From the IMG/VR virus record IMGVR_UViG_3300017963_000726, positions 1 to 24,527 of that record: DNA of 24,527 nt, one strand, 5' to 3'. The notes beneath the pieces are model-generated. The model was not told where the DNA came from, ran no database searches, and worked only from the letters and a program-made list of their open reading frames with translations. Origin of the DNA: a virus. A program made the translations under genes and the position numbers. Shown here one piece after another: positions 5,087 to 21,236 of this stretch; positions within the stretch are counted from its first letter, which is position 1; every line of letters begins with the position of its first letter.

Positions 5087-5090
5087 TGTC

Positions 5091-5699: not shown

Positions 5700-5702
5700 G
5701 GT

Positions 5703-6157: not shown

Positions 6158-6891
6158 TCTGCTGCCTCTCTTTGATCAACGCCCCGCCATTCGCCGAGGC
6201 ACCCTTGGAAAGCGTGTGTGCCGATGTGGGCCATCGGTATGGATGCATCCATCCAGACTTTGTGCCCAAGATCGCGCCACCGCTGACAAAATGCGTAGTC
6301 TTCCGATAGTGAATGCAGCCGCCCCTGCTCGTCCTTGAACCGAAGCGGGTCGAACATGCGGACCGTCTTCTCGCCCGGCACCGCGCGGTCGTAGATGCCG
6401 AGTTCAGGCTCGTAGTGGTTCCACATGGTTTCCAACATGCTGCGCGTGCACCGCATGAATCCACCCGGCATCCCCCAGACTTCGACGAGCCCCGTTTCGG
6501 GATCGCCCATCATCTGCTGATGACCATCCGGCCCGAGGTCTTGTTCACTCCTGAACATGAACTGGATTGGGTAATCCCGCTTGGGGTAGGCGCCCGCGAC
6601 CAGATCAACGTCGTGGTCCAAGAGCTTATGCAGCGATCCGGCCGGCCAGCCGACATCCGAATCAACGAACACCAGATCAGTTGGCTTGTCAGGATCGGCC
6701 AGGAAGTGCGCGACGATCTGAGCCCTTAAGGAATAGATGTCGGCGTGACCGCACTCGTCGAAGATTTTGACCTTGTGCCCAGCCAGAACCATCGGGAACA
6801 TGTCGTAGACGATGGATTTCATCGTCAGGCACGTGACCGTGGCCCCGTATGCCGGTATGGCAATCCAGACGTATTTCCCCTCATTTGACAA
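6154..6891 (-). CDS. GT-A-type glycosyltransferase
   Basis: The 245-residue enzyme has a GT-A/GT2-like layout. An N-terminal strand is followed by a helix, then LVFVDSDVGWPAGSL at about 73-87, where DSD is the metal and nucleotide-sugar binding DxD. After this come GAYPKRDYPIQF (about 104-115), an acceptor region with GMPGGFMRCTRSMLE, and a late SEDYAFCQRWRDLG resembling the catalytic ED motif. It probably transfers a sugar to a virion, DNA or host-surface acceptor. The start is a TTG (6889-6891) supported by GGAG eight bases upstream, inside the end of the preceding gene (11-base overlap). Its sequence motifs mirror those of the neighbouring fusion enzyme, so the two are probably paralogues. 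Confidence 0.8.
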   Translation of the reverse strand: MSNEGKYVWIAIPAYGATVTCLTMKSIVYDMFPMVLAGHKVKIFDECGHADIYSLRAQIVAHFLADPDKPTDLVFVDSDVGWPAGSLHKLLDHDVDLVAGAYPKRDYPIQFMFRSEQDLGPDGHQQMMGDPETGLVEVWGMPGGFMRCTRSMLETMWNHYEPELGIYDRAVPGEKTVRMFDPLRFKDEQGRLHSLSEDYAFCQRWRDLGHKVWMDASIPMAHIGTHAFQGCLGEWRGVDQREAAE

Positions 6892-8146
6892 TTGCTATAC
6901 TCCCCTCGAAGGCGATGTCCCGAGCCGCCCCTCGCGACCAGTCCATCAAGAACCGTGGATAGCCGTCCGTCAGTGCGTCGTCGGCGATGACGACATCACA
7001 GGCGTTGGCGTATCCGCCGGAAAAGAACCGCATCCGGCTGCCGAATGTCCGAGGCGGTCCATCACAGAACCCAAGCCGGAACCTATCAGGCAAGCCCTCC
7101 ATGTCTGCTGTATTGTACCATCCCGTTGCCGGGTCTATCGGTGCCAGGCATATGCCGATGTTGGTGACGTTAGCTTGGCGAGCCAGCCGCTTCGTCATCT
7201 CGGCATAGATCGGATCATGTTCGAGGCAATAGACGTAGTTGCCTGGAATAGCGGCTGCCATGAGGACTGTTGATAGCCCGCTTCCGGTTTCCAGTACGTG
7301 CCCAGGCTCGGCTTCCAGCACTTTGATGGCTGCGATCAATGATTCGGGAGGTGCTACCCATTCGTTGCCGACAGCTTGCGCCGCCTCGTCGAAGTCTTCC
7401 GGCTGCCATCTCCCGTCACGAATGCGATCTGTCACCCATTCCAGCGTCTTGCCGCTCTGGCGCCTGAGATACGCGCCAAGGCTGTCTTTGACGATCACCT
7501 TGGCTGCGTGCCCGAGGCGAAGCTCGCAGTCGGCGTGCAGGCTGAAACCTGCCTTGGCTGCCTTCAGGCAGAAATTGATGTCGCCGCCAACGCGGCCCAT
7601 GTCGTCGATGTACGTGCGCTCGAATATGATCGGCACAACGGTCAGGTCTTTACGGAAGGTCTGCGAAGCGCCTGCAAGCGTCTTGAGGACTGTGCGCCGG
7701 ATGCGCATGAACCCGGTCGGCAAGCCTTCGACTTCGAGCAGGCCGCGACCATCCGGGATCAACACGTCCGGCAGCATCCGAACCGGCATGTCACGGTGTC
7801 CAGTGGCACGCTTGGGATATATCCCGCCGACGACATCCACATTCTCATGGGTGCACAGCCGCACGAGCTGGTCCGGCGTGAACGACACGTCGGCGTCAAC
7901 GAAAACCAGGTCCGTGCAGTCCGAGCGCAGGAAGTCCGCGACGATCGTGTTGCGGGCATCATCGACGTGGCAGTTACCACTCAACAACGCATACGCTGAC
8001 CCGATGCCAGCCTCGGACAGCGCCGCACGGGCATGGGCTATCGATGCCGTGTGCGATGCGTCCGGGCTGTCATAGGCGGTGGTGGCGAGCAAAATTTTCT
8101 GCCCGCTCGCCACTCCCTGATCATCTGTCCAGTAAAGGAAGGACAT
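6881..8146 (-). CDS. GT-A glycosyltransferase fused to a SAM-dependent methyltransferase
   Basis: The product has 421 residues in two modules. Residues 17-225 are a GT-A domain: DDARNTIVADFL, LVFVDADVSFTPDQL with the DAD at 84-86, GGIYPKR at 107-113, GLPTGFMRIRR, and GGDINFCLKAAKAGF in place of the usual ED motif. Residues about 255-421 are a Rossmann methyltransferase: motif I VLETGSGLSTVLMAA (284-298), the acidic end of strand two at CLEHDP (307-312), and DVVIADD (384-390). The likely role is to add and methylate, or cap, a sugar. The stop of the next upstream gene overlaps this start (TAATG). A sugar-nucleotide and methyl acceptor cannot be named from sequence. Confidence 0.78.
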   Translation of the reverse strand: MSFLYWTDDQGVASGQKILLATTAYDSPDASHTASIAHARAALSEAGIGSAYALLSGNCHVDDARNTIVADFLRSDCTDLVFVDADVSFTPDQLVRLCTHENVDVVGGIYPKRATGHRDMPVRMLPDVLIPDGRGLLEVEGLPTGFMRIRRTVLKTLAGASQTFRKDLTVVPIIFERTYIDDMGRVGGDINFCLKAAKAGFSLHADCELRLGHAAKVIVKDSLGAYLRRQSGKTLEWVTDRIRDGRWQPEDFDEAAQAVGNEWVAPPESLIAAIKVLEAEPGHVLETGSGLSTVLMAAAIPGNYVYCLEHDPIYAEMTKRLARQANVTNIGICLAPIDPATGWYNTADMEGLPDRFRLGFCDGPPRTFGSRMRFFSGGYANACDVVIADDALTDGYPRFLMDWSRGAARDIAFEGSIAIVK

Positions 8147-8361
8147 TAACCACCCGTAGTGATGAGGCCGAGATTGACGAGCGCCGTTTCAATGCGCGCG
8201 ATCCGGGCCTCGTTGATGGTCGTGGTGGCAGTAGCCGTGGCCACAGCAGTGATTGCCTGCTGAACCACCGGCGTGGTGCCGAAAAATCCGACCTTGGACG
8301 TGGCGGCCTGCCCGAGGCAGGTGCCATCGTCATTGCCGTCATCGAGATAGTGCACAGCCAT
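8146..8361 (-). CDS. small head-associated protein (possible head fibre/decoration)
   Basis: I choose the ATG at 8359-8361 (71 residues), because AGGAG lies eight bases upstream; an in-frame TTG two codons earlier is too close to that site. The product reads MAVHYLDDGNDDGTCLGQAA then KVGFFGTTPVVQQ, and ends with an Ala/Thr-rich helix with IARIETALVNLGLI. The GFFGxTPVxQ motif recurs in small phage virion proteins encoded next to the coat gene, often annotated as head fibre or decoration proteins. That assignment is from memory of the motif and from position only. Confidence 0.65.
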   Translation of the reverse strand: MAVHYLDDGNDDGTCLGQAATSKVGFFGTTPVVQQAITAVATATATTTINEARIARIETALVNLGLITTGG

Positions 8362-8375
8362 GATCAATTCTCCTG

Positions 8376-9620
8376 TTAGCTGAGACGGGTAGCCAGGCGC
8401 GGGTCAAGCAACTTGCGCCCATAGAGCAGATCGAGACGCCATTTGCTGACATCGTTCACGCCGTCGTAGACCGGGACAACGCGCACGCTCATGTCCTTGT
8501 ACGACTCCCGAGCCCCGTTGACGGCGCCCTGCGGCATTTCCAGCGGCACGATCGCAAGCCCCATGCAGTTTTTATGGAAAACCATGTTTTGCTTGTACGC
8601 GGTCGATGCCGTGCCGACCGGGGTGATCGTCAGACCATCGGTCGTCGAGACACCCGAAAGCGTCACGGTCTGATGCGGACCCGAAAGGATGATCGGGGGC
8701 GAGATCGTGAGCGTGGTGTCGTTGGAGGTCGTTTCATCCGCCGTCACATCGGTGGTCGAGACGAACTGTTGCAGGATGCCCGTGGACTGCTTGGTCTTGG
8801 GGTTGACCATATATACTCCGTCCAAGGTAAATACGTCCCCTGCCTTTATGGTCGTGCTTGATGCCCAGCCATCCGTGATCAGCGTCTGCGTCCAAGTGTT
8901 CTTGGCCGTGTCATAGCTGACATTCTGGTTAATACCGTCGGTCAGCGGCGTGGAAGCCGTGCGCGAGCCGGTGGTGTGCGTCGGCGTGACTTGAGACATA
9001 TACGTGTCCACGCCGCCGATCATGCCAAGGCTGCCATTGGAGTAGGCAGACCGGGCCAAACCTTCGACGTACAAGGTCGTTTGGTTGCCGACGAGGCCCC
9101 AATGGTCAGCCGGTGACAGGAGCGCACAGCGATCCGACATCGGCACAGCCATTTCATCCAACCGTTCCGGCCCAAGCGCGAATTCGGCATAAGAGCCGAG
9201 TTCGTTACCAGGCGTGCCGACCCAGTTGTAAATGCCCTGGTACATCTGCGTTGCAACGTCGTTGGCCATGTAGTTGATAATATTGGTCATCGCTGGCCGC
9301 ATGACACGCTCTGCCAGGTCGGTAACTTCCAGCGTCAAATCCTGACTGTTGAAGCTGAAATCCACACCGATCTGCTGATCGACGGTCAGGGTCGTCTTGC
9401 CCTCGATCACGTCTTGCAGGTCCATCGTGGCGCCGGAACGCACGACGAAGTCTGCCGGCCGGCGGATGCTGATCGTGTCACCGATCTTGTACCCGTTGAC
9501 GCGGTTCGAGAATTCCGACTCGTGAGCCCTGTACAGCTTCTTGAGCCAGCCCAGTTCGTTGTCCAGGATCGCGAGTGCGGCCTTGGCAACGATGGAGGCG
9601 GTAAGCGTTGTATTCGCCAT
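8376..9620 (-). CDS. major capsid protein, P22 coat-like
   Basis: The 414-residue protein fits the P22 gp5 coat family (about 430 residues). It starts MANTTLTASIVAKAALAILD, with an N-terminal helix, followed by RVNGYKIGDTISIRRPADF, a characteristic early strand of this family. A long HK97-fold core follows (QTTLYVEGLARSAYSNGSLG, MYQGIYNWVGTPGNELGSYA). The Thr/Ser-rich region about 215-330 corresponds in place to the P22 insertion (I) domain. The C-terminus WRLDLLYGRKLLDPRLATRL also fits the family. The gene lies between scaffold and a small head gene, the standard head order, with 16 bases separating it from the scaffold stop. Confidence 0.92.
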   Translation of the reverse strand: MANTTLTASIVAKAALAILDNELGWLKKLYRAHESEFSNRVNGYKIGDTISIRRPADFVVRSGATMDLQDVIEGKTTLTVDQQIGVDFSFNSQDLTLEVTDLAERVMRPAMTNIINYMANDVATQMYQGIYNWVGTPGNELGSYAEFALGPERLDEMAVPMSDRCALLSPADHWGLVGNQTTLYVEGLARSAYSNGSLGMIGGVDTYMSQVTPTHTTGSRTASTPLTDGINQNVSYDTAKNTWTQTLITDGWASSTTIKAGDVFTLDGVYMVNPKTKQSTGILQQFVSTTDVTADETTSNDTTLTISPPIILSGPHQTVTLSGVSTTDGLTITPVGTASTAYKQNMVFHKNCMGLAIVPLEMPQGAVNGARESYKDMSVRVVPVYDGVNDVSKWRLDLLYGRKLLDPRLATRLS

Positions 9621-9636
9621 TTCCTATCGTCCTGAT

Positions 9637-10530
9637 TTAGCCCCGCTTGCCGTAGATCAAGGATTTGAAATCATCGACGGACGACCGTTGCGGGTCGAAT
9701 ACGCCGGCTGATCCCGAAGCCTGGATCGCACGGGGCGGGGGCGGTGCTTTGGTTGTCCGCCTCGGTGGTGGAGTCGATAGCTTGCTTTCCAGCCGAGCCA
9801 GTTCGACGCCTTTCCGGGCGGGTGGCATCGCCGCAATTCTCTGAGCCAGGGACGGGTGCTTGCCGAGGTGATGCGCGATCTGGGGACCAACTTCTGACTC
9901 AGCGAAGAAGGACACCATGTCGGCATCAATCGGCAATGACGGGTTGTTCAGAACGACCTGCTCGAAGTCCGGGAGCTGATCCCGCACATCTTCAAGCCGT
10001 TCGAAGAACATCGCCCGGTCGGCCTCGATCTGCGCCTCCTGCGACCTCTGTCGTGTGAGAGCGGTATCATGAGCGCGTTGCTCGGCCAGTGCGCGTCTGA
10101 CGGTCTCCTGTTGAAAGCGTGCCGGGTCCTCGAACTCTAGGTTCGGATCAACCTGCTGTTGCAGGTATTCGCGCAGCTCGTAAAGCTCCTGCTCTGCTTG
10201 CTGTGCGCGGGCCTCGGCTTCTTTCCTTTGGGCCGTCAATTGCGAAATCCGTTCCGATGCCTTGCGACGGGGCTTCGGGCGGTCTTCGCGCGCTTCGTCC
10301 TCTTGCTCGTCTACTTCACTGTCGCCAGCCTCTTGGGCGGCGGGGTCTTCGGATGCCTCTTCTTCGGCTACCGCTTCGAGATTTTCGTCGCTCTCGGGGG
10401 CGGACTCGTCACTCTTGGACGCAAAGCGACCGCTATCGTCACGCGGCTGCTGCACTGGCGCCGTTTCCGGCGGTGGAGCGGTTTCGGTCTGCTGAAACAG
10501 CTCGTGGTTGGCATACTCATTCTCTGCCAT
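9637..10530 (-). CDS. scaffolding protein
   Basis: The start is the ATG at 10528-10530, with GGAGGGG six bases upstream; the protein is then 297 residues. The N-terminal 110 residues are disordered and strongly acidic (for example EEEASEDPAAQEAGDSEVDE). A basic patch (KPRRKASERISQL) and a long coiled coil with many Gln/Glu/Arg (KEAEARAQQAEQELYELREY) come next. The C-terminal segment is Pro/Arg/Lys-rich and ends with VDDFKSLIYGKRG, comparable to the basic coat-binding tail of P22 gp8. The position between portal and coat is the canonical place. The start overlaps the portal stop by 14 bases, indicating coupling. Confidence 0.85.
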   Translation of the reverse strand: MAENEYANHELFQQTETAPPPETAPVQQPRDDSGRFASKSDESAPESDENLEAVAEEEASEDPAAQEAGDSEVDEQEDEAREDRPKPRRKASERISQLTAQRKEAEARAQQAEQELYELREYLQQQVDPNLEFEDPARFQQETVRRALAEQRAHDTALTRQRSQEAQIEADRAMFFERLEDVRDQLPDFEQVVLNNPSLPIDADMVSFFAESEVGPQIAHHLGKHPSLAQRIAAMPPARKGVELARLESKLSTPPPRRTTKAPPPPRAIQASGSAGVFDPQRSSVDDFKSLIYGKRG

Positions 10531-12721
10531 TGGATTCCCCTCCATTGGTACTTTCGCGGCGCTCATCGCGTCGCAGGTCTTGCTCCCGGTATTTGAGAGC
10601 AAATTCTTCGGCCGTATCCTCGCCCTTCATGACCAGCTCGGCGGGGGCCAATTCGGTTTCCATCGCAGTCTTTTCGGTCTGCGCGTAGGTGTGTCCGGTC
10701 TGGGCAAAGATGAGGTCCATCTTGGCCATTAGCTCTTGGATCGACACCATGATCTTCTGCGTGTCGGCTTGCGTCTTCTCGGCGTCCGCCTGAGCCTTGG
10801 CAGCCTGGCCCTGCTTGAGCGCAATCTCGGCTTCGGCGCCCTTCATCTGGAGCTGTGCCGCCGCTTCCTGCATCGGGTCGGGCTGCTGTTGCGGGGCGTC
10901 TTCGCCGAGGATTTCAGGCGGGATCGACCGCTTGAGACGTTCGGCGATCGCGTCAGAGCCGGGCCAGTCCATGGCCTTCGCAATAAGGTCGCCAGCGATC
11001 TGAGCCGCCGGCGGGTAAGCCTGGATAAATTGATACATCGACTCGGCAGCCTCGGCGCGCTTCGTGCTGTAGCTCGGCCCGATGGTCACCCGGCAATCAT
11101 AGTGTCCCTGGCTCAGATCGTTGATGTAGACGGGTTCGCCAGCTTCGTCGTAGCCGGCCGCCTGGTTGATCGGCACATAATATTCAGCGTCATCCTCGCC
11201 CAAAATCCTGATCACACGCTCGTTATCGAACACACGCGGGATCAACTCCACGAGCTGGCGGCCAGCAAACTCCAAAGCGCGCTTGAGGTTGTCCGAGTAG
11301 TGAAATGTGCCCGTATCGCCTTGGGCTTCACGTGCCAAGATGGCCTTGCCGCTATTCTCTGATGACCGCTCGCCAAGCTGTGGATCATAGATGCCTACGC
11401 TTGCCTTGATGTCCCCGTCGGCGATCTGGCTCTCTTGAAAGTAGGCCATCGGGATGTCGGGCGGCGGCTGACGAATCGGGCCTTGCGGCTGGTCCGGGTC
11501 CGGCATGTACGGCAGATAGGGCCGGAGCGCCTTGTGTGCCGAATCCCACACGTCCTTAAAAGGCTTGATCATCGCCGGCGTGACGAGCCAAGGCGATCGC
11601 GGCGCCTGCCCCATGCTCTCAGCGGCGCTCGTGCGCGCGAAGTTGTAGAGCTGCTGCGGATCGCGCGCGAACCGGATCAGGCCATGCCGCAAAACCTTGT
11701 CGTCTACCGGTATTTCCGAGCCGATGACCGGGATGATCGGGATGTCTGAGCCGGGCCACTCTTTTGGCCCTTCGAGGATTTCGACGCCGCTGACGATGTA
11801 GTGCTCGACCTTATGGGTTTGGACTTTCCGGGTTTGCAAGCCATTGGCGGCAATCTCCTCGTCGATGATAGCCCTGTCGGCTTTCGAGAACTTGCCCAGC
11901 TCAATCACTTCGCCGCCGGGCATCTGCACCAGCTCTTTCGTCACGGGTGTCTTGTGCCAGTATTCGGCAATGCGAACCGTGTCGCCTCGCGTCCAATAAA
12001 GTTCGCTTGATCGCTCCTCGAAGTGCTCGACATCGGTCGGCTTGGCGTCGGGGTAGCGTTCCTTAAATTCTTTCTCCGGCAGCAGGTCCGTGACGATGCA
12101 CCACCGCGCATCCGATCGATCGATCTCGACGGCTGCCGGATCCCAATAGACGCTCAGAGGCCGCTGGATCGGCTTGATGCGGATCGTCTGGTCCATAGAC
12201 GTGTCGGACACGTAGTCGGTCATCAGGCGGAAATGACCAATGCCACAGCTAACCTGATGCTCGGCGGCGGTGGCGTAGGCGTGCGAGGCGCTGGACTGAT
12301 ACTGGATTTCGCGGATCAGGCCATCCATCACGTCAGCCATCAGCATCGGCTTCTGTTGCGATGCCTGGGGCTGGTTGCTTTCGAGCGCCTTGCGCTCCTG
12401 ATCCAGATTGCGGACACGCTCAGCGCGGAGCACGGCGCCATCGGTCGGGCGAACGCGAATGGAAACGTCAGCCTGGCGAATGTCGTTGGTGACTTGGCGG
12501 ACGAACTGCGGCAGGCGGTTGATGGTGAGTGTCGGCCGGCCTTCCATCTCGCGCTGGCGGCGGACGGTGTCCGGCCATTGGTTGCCGGCCAAAAAGTTCA
12601 GGTCTTCGCTCGCTTCCACCCGGTTGTCGCGGTCGTGCTCGTAGGCATCGGCAAGGCAGCGGCGGACCTTGGTCACCACGTCGGGCTTGTCGGATTCGGT
12701 GTCGCGGTTGAGGTCAGCCAT
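10517..12721 (-). CDS. portal protein, P22 gp1-like
   Basis: The 734-residue protein matches P22 portal (about 725 residues). The start has the family pattern SEDLNFLAGNQWPDTVRRQR, then RPTLTINRLPQFVRQVTNDI, followed by the clip/stem core with FARDPQQLYNFARTSAAESM and LGERSSENSGKAILAREAQG. The last 150 residues are helical and rich in Gln, Ala and Lys (EIALKQGQAAKAQADAEKTQ), consistent with the C-terminal barrel of P22-type portals. The protein forms the dodecameric DNA channel and terminase dock. Its start overlaps the upstream stop by one base (TAATG), and its stop lies inside the scaffold gene. Confidence 0.92.
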   Translation of the reverse strand: MADLNRDTESDKPDVVTKVRRCLADAYEHDRDNRVEASEDLNFLAGNQWPDTVRRQREMEGRPTLTINRLPQFVRQVTNDIRQADVSIRVRPTDGAVLRAERVRNLDQERKALESNQPQASQQKPMLMADVMDGLIREIQYQSSASHAYATAAEHQVSCGIGHFRLMTDYVSDTSMDQTIRIKPIQRPLSVYWDPAAVEIDRSDARWCIVTDLLPEKEFKERYPDAKPTDVEHFEERSSELYWTRGDTVRIAEYWHKTPVTKELVQMPGGEVIELGKFSKADRAIIDEEIAANGLQTRKVQTHKVEHYIVSGVEILEGPKEWPGSDIPIIPVIGSEIPVDDKVLRHGLIRFARDPQQLYNFARTSAAESMGQAPRSPWLVTPAMIKPFKDVWDSAHKALRPYLPYMPDPDQPQGPIRQPPPDIPMAYFQESQIADGDIKASVGIYDPQLGERSSENSGKAILAREAQGDTGTFHYSDNLKRALEFAGRQLVELIPRVFDNERVIRILGEDDAEYYVPINQAAGYDEAGEPVYINDLSQGHYDCRVTIGPSYSTKRAEAAESMYQFIQAYPPAAQIAGDLIAKAMDWPGSDAIAERLKRSIPPEILGEDAPQQQPDPMQEAAAQLQMKGAEAEIALKQGQAAKAQADAEKTQADTQKIMVSIQELMAKMDLIFAQTGHTYAQTEKTAMETELAPAELVMKGEDTAEEFALKYREQDLRRDERRESTNGGESNGRE

Positions 12722-13467
12722 TATCGCTCATCCTCGTTTGTTCTCCATGCAAGCGGGATGGCACCGGCGAGCGGGTTGGCGTAGAATTCGGTGGAGTTCA
12801 TGCCGGGAGGCTCGACGCGGTAGACGTGGCCGCGTTCTTGATTGCCCGGAACGTACAGCGTGCCGTCCTTTGCTCGAACGGCTGCCGGGTTCTCAATGAC
12901 GTTGTACCCGTATTTCGGGAACATCTTGTCGTAGATCACCTGGGCATCAGGCGAGACGTACTTGTCCGAGCGAAATGGTACGCCAGCTTCCTCTGCCCAT
13001 TGGCGATAGAGCTGCCCGCCGAGCCCTTGGCCGCGTGCCGATTCTAGGACTTGCGATTGCGTGATCTGGGGATCGGGACCGCCTCGTCCTGAAACATAGC
13101 CAGCTGGATTGCTTGCCCGTATGCGATCGCCGGCATTCCTCGCGGCACCAGACCGCAGCGCACCCCTCGGCGCTCTAACTCCTAGCGATCCAACCGCTGC
13201 CGACCCTGCCAGTCCCTCGGCGCCACGCTGCAATGCGTTCTGGCTCACGTAGCCTTGCGGCGCTGCCGGGTCTTGTTCCCGACCGCCGGCATAGCCCACA
13301 GCGCGCACGGCATCGAGGAGCGGCTGCGGCAGACCGAAGCTGACCTGCTCGGTGCCGTCGGGCATCCTGTAGCGGCCAAACGGCAGCATTCCGGTGCCCT
13401 CGACCTGCGTGCCGGTCCAGGCTGGCGGAATGTAGGTCCACTGGCGCTTGGGTTCAGCCATCGACAT
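12721..13467 (-). CDS. phage protein with GNAT-like C-terminal region
   Basis: The 248-residue frame starts at 13467 (MSMAEPKRQW); a second ATG at 13461 is an equal candidate, and neither has a strong ribosome site. Residues 1-145 are Gly/Ala/Pro-rich and probably flexible (SVGSLG-type linkers, RGALRSGAARNAGDRIRASN). Residues about 150-210 show a GNAT acetyltransferase-like core: QVLESARGQGLGGQLYRQWA holds the acetyl-CoA-binding RGQGLG loop, then GVPFRSDKYVSPDAQVIYDK and FPKYGYNVIENP fit the later strands. The earlier GNAT strands are not obvious, so it may be a shortened or cryptic domain. It sits between HNH and portal, overlapping both. The function is unknown. Confidence 0.7.
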   Translation of the reverse strand: MSMAEPKRQWTYIPPAWTGTQVEGTGMLPFGRYRMPDGTEQVSFGLPQPLLDAVRAVGYAGGREQDPAAPQGYVSQNALQRGAEGLAGSAAVGSLGVRAPRGALRSGAARNAGDRIRASNPAGYVSGRGGPDPQITQSQVLESARGQGLGGQLYRQWAEEAGVPFRSDKYVSPDAQVIYDKMFPKYGYNVIENPAAVRAKDGTLYVPGNQERGHVYRVEPPGMNSTEFYANPLAGAIPLAWRTNEDER

Positions 13468-13924
13468 GAGCCCAGTTCTTGCCGTGCACAATCCGCCAAA
13501 TGGCGTGCTTTGATACGCCGTATCTGCGTGCAAGCGTTGTTTGCGGAAGTCGTGACCTCTTGATTCGCTTCACTTCCTGTTCGGTCAAAATTGAAATGGG
13601 ATTGCGCTCGCCAATGCAAGATCGGTTCTTGCTAACCATGTCTTCGCTGTTTTCCTTTGGCGTGCCGACGAACAAATGGTCGGGGTTGACACACCAACGA
13701 TTGTCGCACGAATGGCAGACAAATTCGTTTGTAGCCAGCTTGCGGCCCACTCGCTCCCGCATGATCAATCGCGTGGCCGATTGCGTCTTACCTTCCCAAT
13801 GCAATTGCGCCCGACCGTTCGGGAACTTAACCCCCTTCCAGCTCCAGCAATCGCCAGTCTTGTCGGTGTAATAGTCTATGCGCTGCGCCAAACTCATGCC
13901 GCGCGTTGGCATCTTTTCCGTCAT
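13454..13924 (-). CDS. HNH endonuclease (HNH_3-like) with C-terminal helix-turn-helix
   Basis: The chosen ATG overlaps the terminase stop (ATGA at 13921-13924) and has GGGGGA upstream, giving 156 residues. The nuclease core is VCHSCDNRWCVNPDHLFVGT followed by KENSEDM. It contains the paired cysteines and the H, N and H residues of the beta-beta-alpha-metal fold, preceded by a strand with a conserved CWSWKG. Residues about 112-150 (EQEVKRIKRSRLPQTTLARR, then YGVSKHAIWRIVHGKNW) are a helix-turn-helix, as in free-standing phage homing-type HNH enzymes. HNH nucleases next to large terminases can act in packaging; alternatively this is a mobile homing gene inserted between terminase and portal. 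No intron is visible. Confidence 0.85.
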   Translation of the reverse strand: MTEKMPTRGMSLAQRIDYYTDKTGDCWSWKGVKFPNGRAQLHWEGKTQSATRLIMRERVGRKLATNEFVCHSCDNRWCVNPDHLFVGTPKENSEDMVSKNRSCIGERNPISILTEQEVKRIKRSRLPQTTLARRYGVSKHAIWRIVHGKNWAHVDG

Positions 13925-15303
13925 GCCATCCATCCCCCGCCCTGCATTGAGCCAAATTCTTTGTAGTTCCATTCTTGTGTATCGTCTCGACGCACAATCC
14001 TTGGAAATAATTCAGTCAGAGCCCACACTAAACTGTCAACGCGGTCAGCCGAACCATCCCCTTCTATTCCGTATGCGGTAAATAAAACTTGCTGATCTTC
14101 TAACTCTGGAAAGCTGCCGACATGGCTGATGCGGCCCTGTTCATACAGCGCAGCGATCGGCTCGGCGCGGGTCACCTTCCCTCGGCTGGCGCGGACTTCG
14201 CGGATCGGAATACCGTCACGGGCAGAGCGCAAGGTCTGGACGACCATCTGTCCGCCCTGGTTCAGCTCGGCAACGATGCAGTCCGCGGAATGCAGGTCAT
14301 AGGTTGCGATCGCGCGCCTGGCCCAGCCGAGTGGCGACAGCCGGCAAGATTGGTCATCGAGGACATAGCCGCGACCATCGACGCCAAGCCCACAGGCGAT
14401 GATGCCTGTCTCACTGTGCCCGTCTTCGGTACCTTCGGCTGCCGGGTCAACGGCGACGACGACGCGCTGCATGTCTGGCAGGTCTTGAGGCTTCACACGC
14501 TTTTCATCGAGCATGGATCGAGACCAGAGCGCGCCGGGTGCGTCATCAAGGACTTCGGCGCTGATCTCTTGGCGGCCGAGGCGTGTTCCCTCATAGCGTG
14601 CCTCAATCGACTTGATGAATGACGGCGCCAGGTTCGACTTGTTGTCGTAGGTGTTGCCACGGGTGACGATCGTGTCCGGGTCGGCTATCAGGCGCTTGAC
14701 GATCGGGAGCGGGCGCGGCGTCGTCGTTATAATGACACGCGGGTGCTCGCCGAGACGCAGGCCGAACTGCATCATGTCCCATGTTTCAGCCGCATATCGC
14801 CACTTCGCCAGCTCGTCGCACCAGGCAAGATCGTGCTGCGGCCCGCGAAGCTGATCTGGTTCGGTGGCATTGTACAATGTAGCGACGGCTCCGTTGGGCC
14901 AGGTCAGGCGGCGTTTCGATGGTTCGTAGACCGGCTGAAACTCGGCCGGGTGCACTGCTATTACGCCACTGTCACCTTCCACCATGACGTCGCGCGCATC
15001 GGCTGCTGTCTCGGCGATCAACGCGATACGCTTGTATTTGCCGGGCGCCTCTGGTGTTGGCCCACACACAAGCTGGCGGATTGCTTCCGAGCCGGTGCGG
15101 GTTTTGCCCCAACCACGGCCCGCGAGGATCAGCCAGTTATTCCAGTCACCGTCGGGAACGTGTTGATCCTTGCGTCCCCAGAAACGCCAGTCGAACAACA
15201 TGTGCTGGCGCTGTTCGGGTGACATCTCCTTAAGTATCTGGCTCCTCGTCTCGGCGTCGAGCGATGCCATCAATTCGGCTGTAGATGAGTTCGAGCGTAG
15301 CAT
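13921..15303 (-). CDS. terminase large subunit
   Basis: The 460-residue packaging motor has both domains. Walker A is AGRGWGKT (61-68), Walker B and catalytic Glu are HDLAWCDE (157-164), and coupling motif III is ITTTPRP. The RuvC-like nuclease domain begins with VVVAVDPAAEG (Asp 285), then VAELNQGG (Glu 346) and ADRVDSLVWA (Asp 419/422). The overall sequence resembles the COG5323 terminases of alphaproteobacterial phages and gene transfer agents. The start at 15301-15303 has GGTGA nearby but makes a 74-base overlap with the small subunit. ATG codons at 15268-15270 and 15223-15225 are alternatives; the latter has AAGGAG too close to the codon. Confidence 0.93.
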   Translation of the reverse strand: MLRSNSSTAELMASLDAETRSQILKEMSPEQRQHMLFDWRFWGRKDQHVPDGDWNNWLILAGRGWGKTRTGSEAIRQLVCGPTPEAPGKYKRIALIAETAADARDVMVEGDSGVIAVHPAEFQPVYEPSKRRLTWPNGAVATLYNATEPDQLRGPQHDLAWCDELAKWRYAAETWDMMQFGLRLGEHPRVIITTTPRPLPIVKRLIADPDTIVTRGNTYDNKSNLAPSFIKSIEARYEGTRLGRQEISAEVLDDAPGALWSRSMLDEKRVKPQDLPDMQRVVVAVDPAAEGTEDGHSETGIIACGLGVDGRGYVLDDQSCRLSPLGWARRAIATYDLHSADCIVAELNQGGQMVVQTLRSARDGIPIREVRASRGKVTRAEPIAALYEQGRISHVGSFPELEDQQVLFTAYGIEGDGSADRVDSLVWALTELFPRIVRRDDTQEWNYKEFGSMQGGGWMA

Positions 15304-15709
15304 CGCCGTTCACCGTGGCATCGACTTTGGATTCGGACTTCTGTTCAGACTTATCGGACTGGTTCAAGTATTGCTTGCCGCACCAGATGGCCATTGAGGC
15401 GTTAGACTCGGCCATTTTGAGCTGTGTTCTTCGTAGAGACACGCAGCCTTCTTGGCGCCCGTACTCGAATGCTTCAAAACAATCCGTATGCAGCCGGAGA
15501 AAACTACTGAACGTGTCTTCATTTACTCCGAGTACTGCCGCCGCTTCCTTCCGTGTGCATTGAATCTGCCCGAGGCCCCGGATTTGCCGGACAAGTTCCT
15601 CAGAGTGCTGCAGTTTCGTTGCTCCCTTTGGGCGCCCACCTTTGTTCTTCTTCTTGCGCTTTGGCGGGTCGGTATCCTCGGGATGTTCAGGCGGCGACGT
15701 CTCTTCCAT
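15230..15709 (-). CDS. terminase small subunit
   Basis: The product has 159 residues. The basic, Pro/Lys-rich N-terminus contains KKKNKGGRPKGATK, an AT-hook-like motif. Residues about 50-72 (CTRKEAAAVLGVNEDTFSSF) form a helix-turn-helix for recognising the packaging site. The segment NASMAIWCGKQYLNQSDKSE, with its W-GKQ-L pattern, is typical of small terminases of this class. A variable acidic tail follows. The ATG has GAGG six bases upstream. It lies directly upstream of the large subunit and overlaps the methyltransferase gene by 23 bases. Confidence 0.88.
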   Translation of the reverse strand: MEETSPPEHPEDTDPPKRKKKNKGGRPKGATKLQHSEELVRQIRGLGQIQCTRKEAAAVLGVNEDTFSSFLRLHTDCFEAFEYGRQEGCVSLRRTQLKMAESNASMAIWCGKQYLNQSDKSEQKSESKVDATVNGDATLELIYSRIDGIARRRDEEPDT

Positions 15710-16982
15710 TTTGAGCCTCTACGCGATCGTTAAAACTTTCGCCTGTATCGGCGTGGATGGCCTGTTGGCCGGTGAAGTCCTGCCAGCGTTTGACGGCGAC
15801 ATCTACGTAGGCTGGATTTAGCTCTATGGCGTAGCAGTGTCTGCCGGTCATTTCGGCGGCGATGATGGTAGTTCCAGAGCCGGAGAAGGGCTCGTAGACG
15901 CCCTGGCCGGGGGATGAATTGTTTTCAATGGGGCGTTTCATGCACTCGACGGGCTTCTGGGTGGAGTGGCCGGTCTCAGACTTGCGTGGCTTGTCAATGT
16001 TCCAAACGGTGGATTGTTTGCGGTCACCGGACCAGTGGCCCTGCTTGCTGGATTTGACGGCGTACCAGCATGGCTCGTGCTGTGGGTGATAATGTCCACG
16101 GCTGATGACGAGATGGTTCTTGGCCCAAATGATCTGTGCTCGCAGGTCGAAGCTGCATTTGATGATAGACTGGGCGACTTCGTGTGATTTGTTGCCGGCG
16201 TGCCAAACATACATGACGTCACCGGGGAATAGCGCGTAGGCTTCGGACCAGTCGGCGCGGTCGTCGTTCTCGACTTTGCCAATTGCTCTACCGCCGCCGC
16301 CCTTCTTGCCATCCGCTCGTGGTTTTCCAGCCAAGGCTGCATTGCGCCAATCGGCGTTGTATTCCACCCCATAGGGCGGGTCGGTGACCATTAGGTGGGG
16401 CTTGACGGAGCCGAGGACGGCATCGACGTCGGTGGGGTTTGTGCTATCGCCACAGCGGATGCGGTGGTTTCCGAGTATCCAGGTATCGCCGACGACGGAG
16501 ACGGGCTCCTCGGGCGTTTCTGGTATTTCGTCGGGGTCTGTTAGCCCTTCGGTGGGGTCGTTGAGGAGGTTTGCGAGGAAGTCGTCGTCGAAGCCGATGA
16601 GGTCAAGGCTGAAACCTTCGCTGGCGAGTTCTCCGATTTCAACCTTGAGGAGTTCGGTATCCCATCCGGCGTTCAGGGCGAGCTGGTTGTCGGCGAGGAT
16701 GTATGCGCGCTTTTGGGCATCGGTCCATCCTGTTGCCGTCATCACGGGGACGTCGGTGATGTTGAGTTGGCGGGCGGCGAGGACGCGGCCGTGGCCGGCG
16801 ATGATGTTGCCGGTTTCGTCTATGAGGATCGGGTTCGTCCAGCCCCATTCGCGGATGCTGGCGGCGATCTGGGCAACCTGGGCATCGCTATGCGTGCGGG
16901 CGTTGCGCGCATAGGGGATGAGGTCTTTGACCTTTTTCCGCTCGATGGTGTCGGCGGGCCATGTTGTCACTTGATCAGCCAA
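15687..16982 (-). CDS. ParB-like domain fused to a beta-class DNA methyltransferase
   Basis: The product has 431 residues. Residues about 13-80 are a ParB/Srx-like nuclease domain (LIPYARNARTHSDAQVAQIA, IIAGHGRVLAARQL). The methyltransferase has the catalytic DPPYGVEY at 201-208 before the SAM-binding FSGSGTT at 366-372, with HSTQKPVECMKRP between, which is the motif order of the beta group that methylates adenine N6 or cytosine N4. Such fusions are common in phages and protect viral DNA or regulate packaging and transcription. The start is a TTG (16980-16982) with GGGGG four bases upstream; no ATG exists early in the frame. It overlaps the membrane-protein stop upstream and TerS downstream. 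Confidence 0.9.
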   Translation of the reverse strand: MADQVTTWPADTIERKKVKDLIPYARNARTHSDAQVAQIAASIREWGWTNPILIDETGNIIAGHGRVLAARQLNITDVPVMTATGWTDAQKRAYILADNQLALNAGWDTELLKVEIGELASEGFSLDLIGFDDDFLANLLNDPTEGLTDPDEIPETPEEPVSVVGDTWILGNHRIRCGDSTNPTDVDAVLGSVKPHLMVTDPPYGVEYNADWRNAALAGKPRADGKKGGGGRAIGKVENDDRADWSEAYALFPGDVMYVWHAGNKSHEVAQSIIKCSFDLRAQIIWAKNHLVISRGHYHPQHEPCWYAVKSSKQGHWSGDRKQSTVWNIDKPRKSETGHSTQKPVECMKRPIENNSSPGQGVYEPFSGSGTTIIAAEMTGRHCYAIELNPAYVDVAVKRWQDFTGQQAIHADTGESFNDRVEAQNGRDVAA

Positions 16983-18514: not shown

Positions 18515-18746
18515 TGGTCTGCTCCGGGTATTTGCTGGCGATGTAGTCTCTGGCGATCTGCTGGCAGGCCAGGTCGCAGGTCGTCCAGCTTAGGCCGCCG
18601 GAATACTCCTTGGTGTGTCCACCTATGACGGCGGCGATCTTGACGCCGGAAGTTGTGTTGTGTGTAACGCGGACGATGTGGCTTGGCACCAGCGTCTCTA
18701 GACGCTGCTCGACGCGGTGGGCGAGTGTTCTGGTGGTAAGTTTCAT
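18507..18746 (-). CDS. hypothetical protein
   Basis: The start ATG (18744-18746) overlaps the RHH gene stop as ATGA; the product has 79 residues beginning MKLTTRTLAHRVEQRLETLV. The centre is beta-like (PSHIVRVTHNTTSGVKIAAV, IGGHTKEYSGGLSW) and the end is helical (CDLACQQIARDYIASKYPEQ). The ribosome site is weak, so translation probably depends on coupling to the upstream gene. I do not recognise a family. Confidence 0.7.
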   Translation of the reverse strand: MKLTTRTLAHRVEQRLETLVPSHIVRVTHNTTSGVKIAAVIGGHTKEYSGGLSWTTCDLACQQIARDYIASKYPEQTNG

Positions 18747-18946
18747 TTGCTGGCCCGCCTCTTCTCGTATCCGCCCTGGCGGTTGACGTACTGCTGCAAC
18801 GCGACATTGACGATCTCGGTGAAGCTTTCGCCCTGATTCCGCGCCTGCTTGGCCACGTCCTTCTTGAGTTCTTTGGTGATTCGGCACGCGATCATTTCGG
18901 TGCGGTTCTTGGGTTGGTCTGCTTTGGGTCGTCCGAGTTTAGCCAT
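18743..18946 (-). CDS. ribbon-helix-helix DNA-binding protein, likely repressor
   Basis: I choose the ATG at 18944-18946 (67 residues), with AAGGA nine bases upstream. The first residues are basic and AT-hook-like (MAKLGRPKADQPKN). The RHH fold follows: beta-strand TEMIACRI (16-23), helix A about 24-38 (KELKKDVAKQARNQG), and helix B about 42-55 (FTEIVNVALQQYV). Arc/MetJ/CopG-type proteins of this layout bind short palindromes as dimers of dimers. It is the first gene of the leftward operon and borders a region with two matching palindromes over both promoters, so autoregulation and control of the rightward operon are likely. Confidence 0.82.
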   Translation of the reverse strand: MAKLGRPKADQPKNRTEMIACRITKELKKDVAKQARNQGESFTEIVNVALQQYVNRQGGYEKRRASK

Positions 18947-18978: not shown

Positions 18979-18993
18979 AAATGTCTAACATTT
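18979..18993. promoter_or_regulatory. operator-like palindrome 1
   Basis: AAATGT-CTA-ACATTT is a perfect 15-base palindrome with a three-base centre. It covers the predicted leftward -10. It shares the AATGT/ACATT arms with the palindrome at 19031-19043, as expected for sites of one regulator. Confidence 0.65.
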
Positions 18994-19024: not shown

Positions 19025-19053
19025 TTGCGTAATGTATGACATTCGCTTATATT
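19025..19053 (+). promoter_or_regulatory. predicted rightward promoter
   Basis: TTGCGT (19025-19030), 17 bases, then TATATT (19048-19053) form a sigma70-like promoter with a good -10 and a partial -35. Transcription would start near 19060 and read into the rightward small-gene operon with a leader of about 130 bases. The spacer contains the second palindrome. Confidence 0.55.
19031..19043. promoter_or_regulatory. operator-like palindrome 2
   Basis: AATGT-ATG-ACATT is a perfect inverted repeat located exactly in the spacer of the predicted rightward promoter. A related half site, AATGTATGTCA, stands at 18999-19009, sharing AATGTATG with this one. Centres of the two full palindromes are 51 bases apart. 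Confidence 0.65.
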
Positions 19054-19189: not shown

Positions 19190-19417
19190 ATGGCTAACGT
19201 GATGGTCACCTACGGCAACCGCTACAACGGTCAAGTGCTGGATATGAACGCTTCCATCGAAGGAAGCGGACGCATCCAGGCTGAGGCTCGGTTCACCAGT
19301 TACGGCTGGCTAGTTGAACCTCGCGACCCTGAGCGGACCGACTTGTTCGAGTCGGTGGGCAGCGAGGCTGAAGCCGCTGAGGCGGTCAAGCGCGTTGCCC
19401 TCGCCGTCGGCGCCTAG
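19190..19417 (+). CDS. small hypothetical protein, first gene of the rightward operon
   Basis: The product has 75 residues from an ATG with a strong AGGAGG six bases upstream. It begins MANVMVTYGNRYNGQVLDMN, has a beta-like middle (GRIQAEARFTSYGWLVEPRD) and an acidic Ala/Glu-rich C-terminal helix (EAEAAEAVKRVALAVGA). No family is recognised. As first gene after the predicted regulated promoter it is a candidate early phage protein. Confidence 0.78.
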   Translation: MANVMVTYGNRYNGQVLDMNASIEGSGRIQAEARFTSYGWLVEPRDPERTDLFESVGSEAEAAEAVKRVALAVGA

Positions 19418-19423
19418 CGGCGC

Positions 19424-19443
19424 GGCGGTCCTTCGGGACCGCC
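19424..19443 (+). promoter_or_regulatory. UUCG hairpin after first rightward gene
   Basis: GGCGGTCC-TTCG-GGACCGCC is a perfect eight-pair stem with an extra-stable tetraloop, six bases after the stop. No T-run follows, so it is more likely an RNA processing or stabilising hairpin, or a weak terminator, than a full intrinsic terminator. The sequence leading to the next gene ends with ATGGAGATGGAAAC, as in the units further right. Confidence 0.7.
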
Positions 19444-19480
19444 CTACCTTGTGCAGCGTAACAATCATGGAGATGGAAAC

Positions 19481-19729
19481 ATGATGACGTTTACGATTGT
19501 GAAACGGCCGGTTGGTAGCAATGGCACGGACGGATTCTTCCGGGACGTGACGGTTGCCAGCCTGCGCGAGGCGGAGTTGATCGCCGAGGAATTGTTCAGC
19601 GTTTGGAAGCCGGATGATCGGAAGGCTTACAGCCTGCGCATCTACGGACCGCAGCGTTACGCGGGCGCGATCTCAAGCTTCTGTCATTTCTTTGGTGAGT
19701 GGAGTCACGCCCCTGATTGGGACGAGTGA
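19481..19729 (+). CDS. small hypothetical protein
   Basis: The product has 82 residues from the first of two tandem ATG codons, with GGAG eight bases upstream within the repeated leader ATGGAGATGG. It begins MMTFTIVKRPVGSNGTDGFF, has a helix with ASLREAELIAEELFSVW, and ends with an aromatic, acidic tail (CHFFGEWSHAPDWDE). The pattern of a strand, a helix and further strands suggests a compact alpha/beta fold. No family is recognised. Confidence 0.72.
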   Translation: MMTFTIVKRPVGSNGTDGFFRDVTVASLREAELIAEELFSVWKPDDRKAYSLRIYGPQRYAGAISSFCHFFGEWSHAPDWDE

Positions 19730-19730
19730 G

Positions 19731-19796
19731 ATTGTAGCGGTGTGGAGCCTGGCGACGGGCTCCCATCCCCTGCAATCCCGCAGGATGGAGATGGAA
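19731..19796 (+). repeat. intergenic RNA unit, copy 1
   Basis: The unit begins ATTGTAGCGGTGTGG, contains hairpin one (GGAGCC at 19744-19749 with GGCTCC at 19758-19763), then hairpin two (CCTGC-AATCCC-GCAGG at 19769-19784), and ends with the ribosome site ATGGAGATGGAA just before the next start. The same arrangement occurs at 20027-20093 and 20291-20361. Confidence 0.75.
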
Positions 19797-20027
19797 ATGA
19801 CTGAATCAGCAACCCACAACGATCTGACTGTTGAAGACGTTCTTGATCTTATCAAAAACGGTGTGCTTAGCCCTCGGACGGTGACTTTCGAAGGCGAGCC
19901 GCTGCCGACCACGCACACGCGCCGAGCATTGAAACGCAACGTGTTTGATCACTACGGTGACGATCAAGTCTACACGGTCACGATTTCAGATTACGGCAAC
20001 TCAGCCGCGATCGAACGGGCTAAGTGA
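19797..20027 (+). CDS. small hypothetical protein
   Basis: The product has 76 residues and starts at the ATG directly after the repeated leader (GGAG eight bases upstream... within ATGGAGATGGAA). It begins MTESATHNDLTVEDVLDLIK, continues GVLSPRTVTFEGEPLPTTHT with a basic RRALKRNVFDHYG, and ends with YTVTISDYGNSAAIERAK. It looks like a short helix followed by beta strands. I do not recognise a family; it belongs to the rightward accessory set. Confidence 0.72.
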   Translation: MTESATHNDLTVEDVLDLIKNGVLSPRTVTFEGEPLPTTHTRRALKRNVFDHYGDDQVYTVTISDYGNSAAIERAK

Positions 20028-20093
20028 TTTCGGCGGTGTGGCCATCGGCAACGGTGGCCCATCCCCCGCAATCACGTGGGATGGAGATGGACT
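20027..20093 (+). repeat. intergenic RNA unit, copy 2
   Basis: The unit begins ATTTCGGCGGTGTGG. Hairpin one is GGCCATC (20040-20046) with GGTGGCC (20053-20059), including one wobble pair. Hairpin two is CCCGC-AATCAC-GTGGG (20065-20080): compared with copy 1 both arms changed but pairing is kept. It ends ATGGAGATGGACT before the start. Confidence 0.75.
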
Positions 20094-20291
20094 ATGAAAG
20101 ATCATTATCAAGAACGTGTTCAGACGCTCAACAGGCTTATTGCGCAGCATTGCTACGATATGCAGCAAAGCTACGAACTCTGGAAATCCAGCCCGGAATG
20201 GTGGCCTGCCGTTCAGTCTACGATCCAGCGAAGGCTAGACCTTGCAAGAGATCAACGACGCTGGGCTTTGAAGTGTTTGTTGGATGACTGA
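20094..20291 (+). CDS. small helical hypothetical protein
   Basis: The product has 65 residues with GGAG nine bases before the ATG, inside the repeated leader. It is nearly all helical and rich in Gln, Arg and Trp (HYQERVQTLNRLIAQHCYDM, TIQRRLDLARDQRRWALKCL). The layout of two helices around SSPEWWPAV resembles that of the 76-residue product at 20515-20745, perhaps a distant paralogue. Function unknown. Confidence 0.7.
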   Translation: MKDHYQERVQTLNRLIAQHCYDMQQSYELWKSSPEWWPAVQSTIQRRLDLARDQRRWALKCLLDD

Positions 20292-20361
20292 TTGTAGCGT
20301 CTTGGGGATGGCTTCGGCTGTCCCCTTGGCCCTGCAATCACGCAGGATGGAGATGGAAACC
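20291..20361 (+). repeat. intergenic RNA unit, copy 3
   Basis: The unit begins ATTGTAGCGTCTTGG. Hairpin one is GGGGATGGC-TTCG-GCTGTCCCC (20304-20325), nine pairs including two wobbles. Hairpin two is CCTGC-AATCAC-GCAGG (20331-20346). It ends with ATGGAGATGGAAACC before the next start. Confidence 0.75.
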
Positions 20362-20445
20362 ATGACTATGCTGATCGTTTTGACTTGTATCGTTCCGACC
20401 CTGACCGTCGCTTTGTTGGTTATGGCGACAGATACGGAGTTGTGA
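20362..20445 (+). CDS. 27-residue membrane peptide
   Basis: Directly after the third repeated leader, an ATG opens a frame of 27 residues with a single hydrophobic segment (MLIVLTCIVPTLTVALLVMA) and a short acidic tail (TDTEL). The TGA overlaps the next ATG by one base (TGATG). The standard leader and coupling support translation despite the tiny size. It would sit in the inner membrane; function unknown. Confidence 0.6.
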   Translation: MTMLIVLTCIVPTLTVALLVMATDTEL

Positions 20446-20612
20446 TGGTCCCACTGGCCATCTTGGTCTTCGAAATCTTGCTGCTTCTGGCAGTGCTACG
20501 GATGAGGCTACGAGATGCAACGACGACGACTAGAACAGATCGACAAGTATCGGGAGTTAAGCCATCAGGCTCAAAGGGGTTTCGAATGGTATCGCGATCG
20601 AAACGATCCTGA
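20445..20612 (+). CDS. 55-residue single-span membrane protein
   Basis: The ATG overlaps the preceding TGA and has GGAG five bases upstream. Residues 2-18 are a membrane helix (VPLAILVFEILLLLAVL), followed by a basic segment (RMRLRDATTTTRTDRQ) consistent with a cytoplasmic C-terminus. The last two thirds overlap, in another frame, the gene starting at 20515, so the tail composition may be dictated by that gene. The start and membrane segment look real; the exact biological length is less certain. Confidence 0.5.
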   Translation: MVPLAILVFEILLLLAVLRMRLRDATTTTRTDRQVSGVKPSGSKGFRMVSRSKRS

Positions 20613-20745
20613 GATGGCTGAGTATCACTTGCAGATGAAAACCACGCTTCACAAGATGGCGGCGTGTTTGGCTCGGCGAGAAGAGCGTAAGGCGCGGGCT
20701 CTGGAGGCCCTCCAGAGGGCCAAGGTAGAAGATGTGTCTGTCTAG
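20515..20745 (+). CDS. small charged helical protein
   Basis: The product has 76 residues with GAGG seven bases before the ATG, and overlaps the 55-residue membrane protein by 98 bases in another frame. It is strongly helical and basic (RRRLEQIDKYRELSHQAQRG, then YHLQMKTTLHKMAACLARRE, RKARALEALQRAK). This is a coiled-coil-like pattern suited to nucleic-acid or protein binding. No family is recognised. Confidence 0.7.
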   Translation: MQRRRLEQIDKYRELSHQAQRGFEWYRDRNDPEMAEYHLQMKTTLHKMAACLARREERKARALEALQRAKVEDVSV

Positions 20746-20751
20746 CGTGTT

Positions 20752-20771
20752 GGGCTTGCTACGGCGAGCCC
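20752..20771 (+). promoter_or_regulatory. UACG hairpin before the last rightward gene
   Basis: GGGCTTGC-TACG-GCGAGCCC forms an eight-pair stem (one wobble) with a UNCG-class tetraloop, located seven bases after the preceding stop. It has no T-run. It continues the pattern of a stable hairpin in nearly every gap of this operon, although the following leader is AGGAGAGGTGAG instead of the repeated one. Confidence 0.65.
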
Positions 20772-20812
20772 TTCGCCCCGTACAGGCGTTGAAACACAAC
20801 AGGAGAGGTGAG

Positions 20813-21079
20813 ATGGATATCTTTGAAGCAATGAAGCAGCAGCGTGAGTTCGAGTTGGTCGTCGGGAGTTACTACCATGTCCCGGAGTGGGCCTGGCGAG
20901 TCGATCAGGCGCTTCGGGTGCATGGCCCGATGACCAATAAGGAGCTGGCGGCGATCGTTCGCCGGCCACCTCAGAGGACTCACGAGGTCGTCACCAAGAT
21001 GCAGCGCCTCGGGATGCTCACCAAGCATCGAGAGGGTCGTGAGGTGAAGCTAATGCTTCCGCATCATCATTGTGCGTAA
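20813..21079 (+). CDS. winged-helix DNA-binding protein
   Basis: The product has 88 residues from an ATG with AGGAGAGG upstream. Residues about 25-80 form a winged helix: WAWRVDQALRVHGPMTNKEL, then the recognition-helix region PPQRTHEVVTKMQRLGMLTK and the wing HREGREVKLMLP. The pattern matches MarR/BlaI-like or replication-type winged helices. As last gene of the rightward operon, directly before the terminator, it may regulate the phage switch or replication; its target is unknown. Confidence 0.78.
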   Translation: MDIFEAMKQQREFELVVGSYYHVPEWAWRVDQALRVHGPMTNKELAAIVRRPPQRTHEVVTKMQRLGMLTKHREGREVKLMLPHHHCA

Positions 21080-21236
21080 CGGGGGAGGCTTCGGCCTCCT
21101 CTTTTTTTGTTTCCGATTTTGAACGAAGTTCATCCCGCAGGGCCTTGTTCTCGATCTCAAGGTCGCGGGTGCGCAGCAGCGACTCGCGCAGCGTCTCAAC
21201 GAGGACGTCGTAAAGTTCGTGTGCTTGCATATTCAT
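21018..21236 (-). CDS. small coiled-coil protein, overlapping the terminator convergently
   Basis: The product has 72 residues. The first half (MNMQAHELYDVLVETLRESL, then DLEIENKALRDELRSKSE) is a convincing leucine-zipper-like coiled coil. The second half is acidic and is encoded through the rightward terminator hairpin and 62 bases of the winged-helix gene on the other strand. No good ribosome site is present upstream of the tandem ATGs; a TATACA sits four bases before the first. The N-terminal composition makes it probably real, but the C-terminal extent may be accidental. It resembles in type the coiled-coil product at 23181-23357. Confidence 0.55.
   Translation of the reverse strand: MNMQAHELYDVLVETLRESLLRTRDLEIENKALRDELRSKSETKKEEAEASPVTHNDDAEALASPHDPLDAW
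21082..21108 (+). terminator. intrinsic terminator of the rightward operon
   Basis: GGGGAGGC-TTCG-GCCTCCTC (21082-21101) with a TTTTTTT run (21102-21108) begins three bases after the stop of the winged-helix gene. It is a textbook rho-independent terminator in the rightward direction. On the minus strand the same hairpin has no trailing T-run. Confidence 0.92.

Follow-up and report, generated by a model that had tools for sequence, protein, structure and literature searches.

Repeated hairpin units in a small-gene operon

The window analysed here, a whole stretch of 24,527 nucleotides (positions 1 to 24,527 of virus record IMGVR_UViG_3300017963_000726; 24.5 kb, encoding a P22-type portal, coat and terminase), carries on its plus strand an operon of small open reading frames (ORFs) at 19190..21079, in which three intergenic gaps hold copies of one repeated RNA unit. 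The ORFs span 19190-19417, 19481-19729, 19797-20027, 20094-20291, 20362-20445, 20445-20612, 20515-20745 and 20813-21079. Units 1, 2 and 3 (19730..19784, 20026..20080 and 20290..20346, all on the plus strand) were detected as a 66-nt direct-repeat family, and they are the three strong forward matches of a covariance model in the window (E 8e-18, 9e-15, 2e-12), the sole further match being a weak reverse reading of unit 1. Their fold energies are low against dinucleotide shuffles (z = -3.9, -2.4 and -5.5 for units 1, 2 and 3), so the three repeated gaps noticed in a preliminary description of this DNA are real.

The minimum-energy fold of the unit is one long hairpin, an irregular stem of ~20 bp capped by hairpin 1. 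Unit 1 begins right after the TGA of ORF 19481-19729; its long stem joins GATTGTAG (19730-19737) to CTGCAATC (19770-19777), hairpin 1 occupies 19744-19763 with a GCGA loop, and a 3' strand, GCAGG (19780-19784), serves an alternative hairpin 2. Unit 2 has the arms GATTTCGG and CCGCAATC, a GCAA-looped hairpin 1 at 20040-20059 and the 3' strand GTGGG, and unit 3 has the arms GATTGTAG and CTGCAATC, a UUCG-looped hairpin 1 at 20304-20325 and the 3' strand GCAGG; in both, the stem base is overlapped by a TGA stop (20025-20027 and 20289-20291). The stop-codon arms of units 1-3 read GATTGTAG, TGATTtCGG and TGATTGTAG, with the partners CTGCAATC, CCGcAATCA and CTGCAATCA on the far side of the tetraloop hairpin.

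In the alternative fold, the middle strand pairs with GCAGG (or GTGGG) beside the ribosome site, giving hairpin 2 (CCTGC-AATCCC-GCAGG). Both folds draw on one middle strand and are therefore mutually exclusive. In unit 2 that strand carries a T-to-C change and both of its partners an A-to-G change, so both pairings are kept. Hairpin 2 of the window units abuts the GGAG of the ribosome site, whose sequence with the start codon, ATGGAGATGG, lies at 19785..19799 (plus strand) after unit 1; the ribosome-site motif recurs at 20081-20090 (unit 2), at 20347-20356 (unit 3) and at 19467-19476, following the hairpin at 19424. A pseudoknot between the hairpin-2 loop and the 5' arm was rejected, as it leaves the covariation of arm positions 5-8 unexplained.

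The preliminary description had drawn two successive hairpins in each gap. Hairpin 2 is real as an alternative state, but the dominant fold is the single long hairpin, in which the unit start (GATTGTAG) is paired to the CTGCAATC that the description had assigned to the stem and loop of hairpin 2. Its observation that stem bases vary while pairing is kept holds among units 1-3, and the intervening coding sequences are unrelated, as it had stated: the proteins encoded between the units have no detectable similarity to one another. It had also grouped with the units the gaps at 19424 and 20752. The hairpins that it saw there exist, both of them simple, one with a UUCG loop behind the stop codon of ORF 19190-19417 (19424..19443, plus strand) and one with a UACG loop behind ORF 20515-20745 (20752..20771, plus strand). 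Neither has the long stem or matches either of our covariance models, their z values are only -1.9 and -1.2, and they are not members.

A conserved structure shared by different phage types

A blastn search for unit 1 picked out, below threshold (E about 2), a site in Roseobacter phage CRP-114 that on reading turned out to be a complete unit, immediately ahead of gp2. The CRP-114 consensus, turned into a gapped pattern for viral contigs and used together with blastn, yielded further copies, including those of CRP-227 and CRP-361; the set grew with a second pattern, and the third brought to light another class (class II), in which TGACGCAT pairs with ATGCGYCA and the UGA stop codon lies within the stem. 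Pattern searches, BLAST and two covariance models, the latter used in place of a homemade arm-pairing scan that was too noisy, bring the total to 63 distinct copies in 41 loci. The carriers are T7-type Roseobacter phages, P22-type and HK97-type phages, and genomic copies in Rhodobacterales; among 30 records, 8 encode a T7-type RNA polymerase, 4 a P22-type portal (two of them weak matches) and 2 an HK97-type portal. In the T7-type Roseobacter phages, the unit sits in the early small-gene region upstream of the RNA polymerase.

The exact pattern found the unit in 4 of 391 sampled genomes of the alphaproteobacterial order of L053 (Neomegalonema), against none for a reversed-pattern control, and the model added one more (L080). 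Translations read at three genomic loci place L089 in a prophage region, L087 near a terminase-like and a replication-type ORF, and L088 near an integrase-like fragment only; the Rhodobacterales genomic copies look like prophages or their remnants. Weak partial model matches, confined to the upper stem and lying on the same strand as the full units, also occur in related contigs (L103, L105, L106 and L109), which suggests degenerate or shorter relatives of the unit.

Not every pattern match was real. The first strict pattern had no match and the subsequent one two chance matches only, and several matches in the viral-contig searches were likewise due to chance. The genome-contig pattern matches L049-L059, none of which has a strong model score (L049 only 0.02), were judged to be chance too. 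A covariance search of 397 genomes from the order of L051 found no unit, a weak negative with 14 candidates scored per genome; in the second order examined (not that of L051), the model matches L083 and L085 were judged on inspection to be chance. A portal search in genome contigs found nothing. The nearest structural relatives of the window virus (L001, which lacks the operon region, and L002-L017 and L021-L031, related by terminase and KaiC-like protein) carry no unit. No Rfam 15 family reached its gathering cutoff, a permissive search returning noise only, and the Roseobacter phage genome paper mentions neither RNase III nor hairpins or repeats. With no match in Rfam 15 or in the open-access literature searched, a search that was not exhaustive, the unit is apparently an undescribed conserved RNA element of phages.

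Pairing of the long stem is preserved through extensive sequence change. Across 21 class I copies, 92.7% of cells are paired and 13 of the 20 pairs show double-sided changes; across 35 copies of both classes the figures are 92.6% and 14 of 17 pairs changed on both sides. The covariation score of these 35 copies was reached by none of 500 shuffles, and slid structures were only 34-40% paired. All four basal pairs differ between class I and class II (GC/UA/CG/AU at the base). Basal and upper stem are separated by a mismatch in 63/63 copies; this is C.C in 61/63, a conservation that is free of bias only in the dozen or so copies found by model alone, because the patterns fixed both C positions.

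Hairpin 2 is present in 41 of the 63 copies (a partly biased sample). It covaries too: in the alignment used for that test 95% of its cells are paired, and the column pair 48-61 is A-U in 14 copies and C-G in 4; the class I part of this evidence is biased, since the second pattern required GCAKG. Class II copies were selected without a hairpin-2 requirement, and a perfect 5-bp partner lies nearby in 12 of 27 (one 17 nt away), where by our own estimate chance gives about 6% per copy, or about 2 of 27. Units outside the GCAKG selection (window unit 2, L068 6199 and L078 569) keep both pairings with changed bases. The predicted energies of the two folds are close, with a median difference of -1.7 kcal/mol and 34/41 copies within 5.

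Taken by themselves, the three window copies could be recent duplicates, similar by chance or as plain spacers devoid of RNA function. That explanation is contradicted by the copies in dozens of other contigs and by compensatory change at nearly every pair, and we regard it as hardly tenable. The preliminary description had argued for a selected structure and proposed a covariance-model search for a second genome and a check of the covariation; the search did find copies in other phages and the covariation is extensive, and selection on the RNA structure is therefore strongly supported. That the unit exists as a selected RNA structure and is no artefact is near certain.

Gene joints, cassette exchange and the surrounding region

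The unit is anchored to the end of the upstream gene. In 58/63 copies, the stem base is no more than 5 nt from the stop codon of an upstream ORF, counting ORFs of 35 aa or longer; TGA accounts for 52 of the 62 stops detected, and the class II patterns imposed no stop-codon requirement. The next start codon follows at a median of 26 nt downstream. When folding is computed with the 5' arm blocked, the two-hairpin state results, and this arm is what a ribosome terminating at the stop would cover.

Related phages exchange genes between units. L068 and L067 are 93% identical as far as the start codon that follows one unit; unrelated genes come next, and identity resumes, at 86%, with the stop codon of a later unit. 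L077 matches L067 almost exactly across a unit core, after which it runs into the tail of another unit. These comparisons, from one phage group, therefore place the breakpoints between unit core and start codon, and lend support to the earlier suggestion that the units border cassettes. The interpretation offered in the preliminary description is thus upheld in part: a selected structure and cassette borders stand, whereas the drawn structure and the membership of the gaps at 19424 and 20752 do not.

In the window, the operon is divergent from an Arc-like repressor gene (18743-18946, minus strand). Two AATGTnTnACATT palindromes (18980-18992 and 19031-19043; 0 expected by chance) lie between the two, flanking a promoter-like TTGCGT-17-TATATT, and are likely to be operators of a divergent control switch. 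The last operon protein, of the winged-helix type (HVO_A0114/MarR-like), is the only product with a family match; a 65-aa ORF has a weak Pfam match under the family cutoff and is not counted. BLAST with the operon region and with the winged-helix protein, and a viral-contig search with a 76-aa ORF, found no relatives. A second open frame (20081-20287, plus strand) starts from an ATG inside the ribosome site and overlaps ORF 20094-20291 almost entirely. An intrinsic terminator (21081..21110, plus strand; hairpin 21081-21102, then a T run) closes the operon. A scan of the operon gaps for a hairpin with a T run returned only this site and a chance-level one at 20444, the units having no T run, and a sigma-70-type scan of the unit gaps found no promoter-like site.

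Elsewhere in the window, an 18-bp near-perfect hairpin with a UUCG-type loop lies amid the structural genes (5817-5856, minus strand). A strong hairpin within the terminase gene (GGGATCGCGTCCGCGCGATCCC-like) recurs in terminase relatives (L004 502-523, L005 502-523, L009 285-306 and L010 93-114) and may merely reflect protein conservation. L001 (IMGVR_UViG_3300028840_000647) is 99.99% identical to 3924-16749, a second assembly of the same phage that stops short of the operon.

Possible roles of the unit

The closest architectural counterparts are the early RNase III sites of T7 (R0.3-R1.3, with R1.1 as the model substrate), irregular ~20-bp hairpins with an internal loop between small early genes. 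The unit, likewise, lies between cistrons of a phage operon and forms an irregular double-stranded hairpin about two helical turns long. In the T7 0.4-0.5 gap, the predicted stem starts on the GA of the stop TGA and the ribosome site lies just downstream; the abutment of stem and stop seen in 58/63 units is thus an observed likeness to T7 gaps and not a formal defining feature. The T7 sites share no sequence or model match with the unit, and the T7 folds examined have no conserved alternative hairpin 2; the unit, in turn, spans unrelated phage types, and its cleavage by RNase III is putative.

On architectural grounds only, we rank an RNase processing signal first among the mechanisms. With a probability of about 0.4, the unit would be a stop-codon-anchored junction for mRNA processing or stability, bistable, similar to the T7 RNase III sites and with terminating ribosomes as its probable gate. 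Acting in cis as an RNA joint of two neighbouring phage operon genes, it would present in its long fold a processing or stability site of the T7 early-region type, which host RNase III or a similar enzyme may cleave in the 3' strand at a point above the basal stem. The tetraloop hairpin 1 would stay on the upstream mRNA and cap its 3' end, and the downstream mRNA would refold so that hairpin 2 caps its 5' end beside a free ribosome site; hairpin 2 can form in the putative cleavage product folded in silico. Translation of the upstream gene probably toggles the two folds, because a terminating ribosome must open a stem that holds or adjoins the stop codon. With such a joint, small genes would have messages that are made and degraded separately, and could be swapped as cassettes.

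Several points weigh against this proposal. Model R2 finds no match in the T7 early region (L090), so the likeness to T7 is architectural only. The T7 R1.1 hairpin is cut by an alphaproteobacterial RNase III (PMC6121014), but the stem of the unit is interrupted and not long, and the RNase III of Sinorhizobium reportedly requires longer double-stranded RNA than that of E. coli (PMC6121014). Hairpin 2 is missing in roughly a third of copies, which makes the refolding step optional at best. The conserved C.C mismatch might just as well serve recognition by a protein.

Much of the same evidence would fit a translation-gated switch that operates without cleavage, in which the terminating ribosome would melt the basal stem and free the middle strand to form hairpin 2, so tuning how the next gene is initiated. 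The stop codon in or beside the stem, the near-equal predicted energies of the two folds, a 5' arm that is exactly the region covered by a terminating ribosome, and the abutment of hairpin 2 on the GGAG of the ribosome site in the window units all point this way. In most other copies, however, hairpin 2 ends well before the ribosome site (the start lies 23-30 nt after the stem) and so would not mask it, and many class II copies lack hairpin 2 altogether. We consider a switch of this kind possible though doubtful; it is nearly as good an explanation as processing, and both can hold together.

Two further explanations appear improbable, to a similar degree. If the main value of the unit were as a recombination border, a short homology for exchanging small-gene cassettes, one would expect the shared flanks of L068 and L067 to end and resume at units, L077 and L067 to diverge after the unit core and the element to occur in unrelated phage types, all of which is seen; yet recombination needs sequence identity, and here sequence drifts while RNA pairing is kept, with strand and stop/start register strictly fixed. 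Exchange is more plausibly a by-product than the function under selection. Cis-acting antitermination by an RNA, as in put RNA, offers another model, in which the unit would bind a phage or host RNA-binding or antitermination factor, with the mismatch as the recognition point. A C.C mismatch in 61/63 copies between freely varying helices and the repetition of copies along a single operon favour such binding, but no candidate factor was identified, the copies sit at gene joints and not near promoters, and the search patterns had partly fixed the conserved C positions. Binding of CsrA/RsmA, considered for the GGA-rich ribosome site, was rejected, the GGA motifs not being conserved in other copies.

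Two other families of phage repeats invite comparison. The start-associated elements SAS and ESAS of Cluster K mycobacteriophages are, like the unit, short repeated elements before the starts of some small non-structural genes, about half with an upstream inverted repeat (PMC3203893); SAS is a fixed 13-bp sequence, GGGATAGGAGCCC, of unknown function, and ESAS, in contrast to the unit, is reported to be an inverted repeat with a conserved consensus sequence and no stop-codon anchoring (PMC3203893). We did not find GGGATAGGAGCCC upstream of starts on the coding strand; unit 1 contains one near match, but on the opposite strand, and total matches do not exceed chance. The promoter-early-stem-loops (PeSLs) of T4-type phages are intergenic stem-loop cassettes tied to small-gene shuffling, as the unit is (cited in PMC4503421); they join an early promoter to a stem-loop or terminator, whereas the unit gaps have neither a promoter-like site nor a T run.

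The unit belongs among the intercistronic RNA elements of phages, with a mechanism that is moderately supported. More speculatively, it may represent a horizontally shared, previously undescribed phage RNA family serving as a universal gene joint. Its bistable hairpin, with the stop codon built into the stem and flipped by terminating ribosomes, would separate, protect and tune neighbouring messages and accept any small gene as a cassette. It is poorly understood how phages add, express and remove the many small genes of unknown function packed into their early and accessory regions while leaving adjacent genes undisturbed. An RNA joint that is shared among phages and holds stop and start in a fixed register provides an answer that can be tested. 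The unit could also serve as a sequence tag for accessory-gene cassettes in metagenomes, and if the terminating ribosome does control its bistability, it would constitute an unusual coupling between neighbouring genes.
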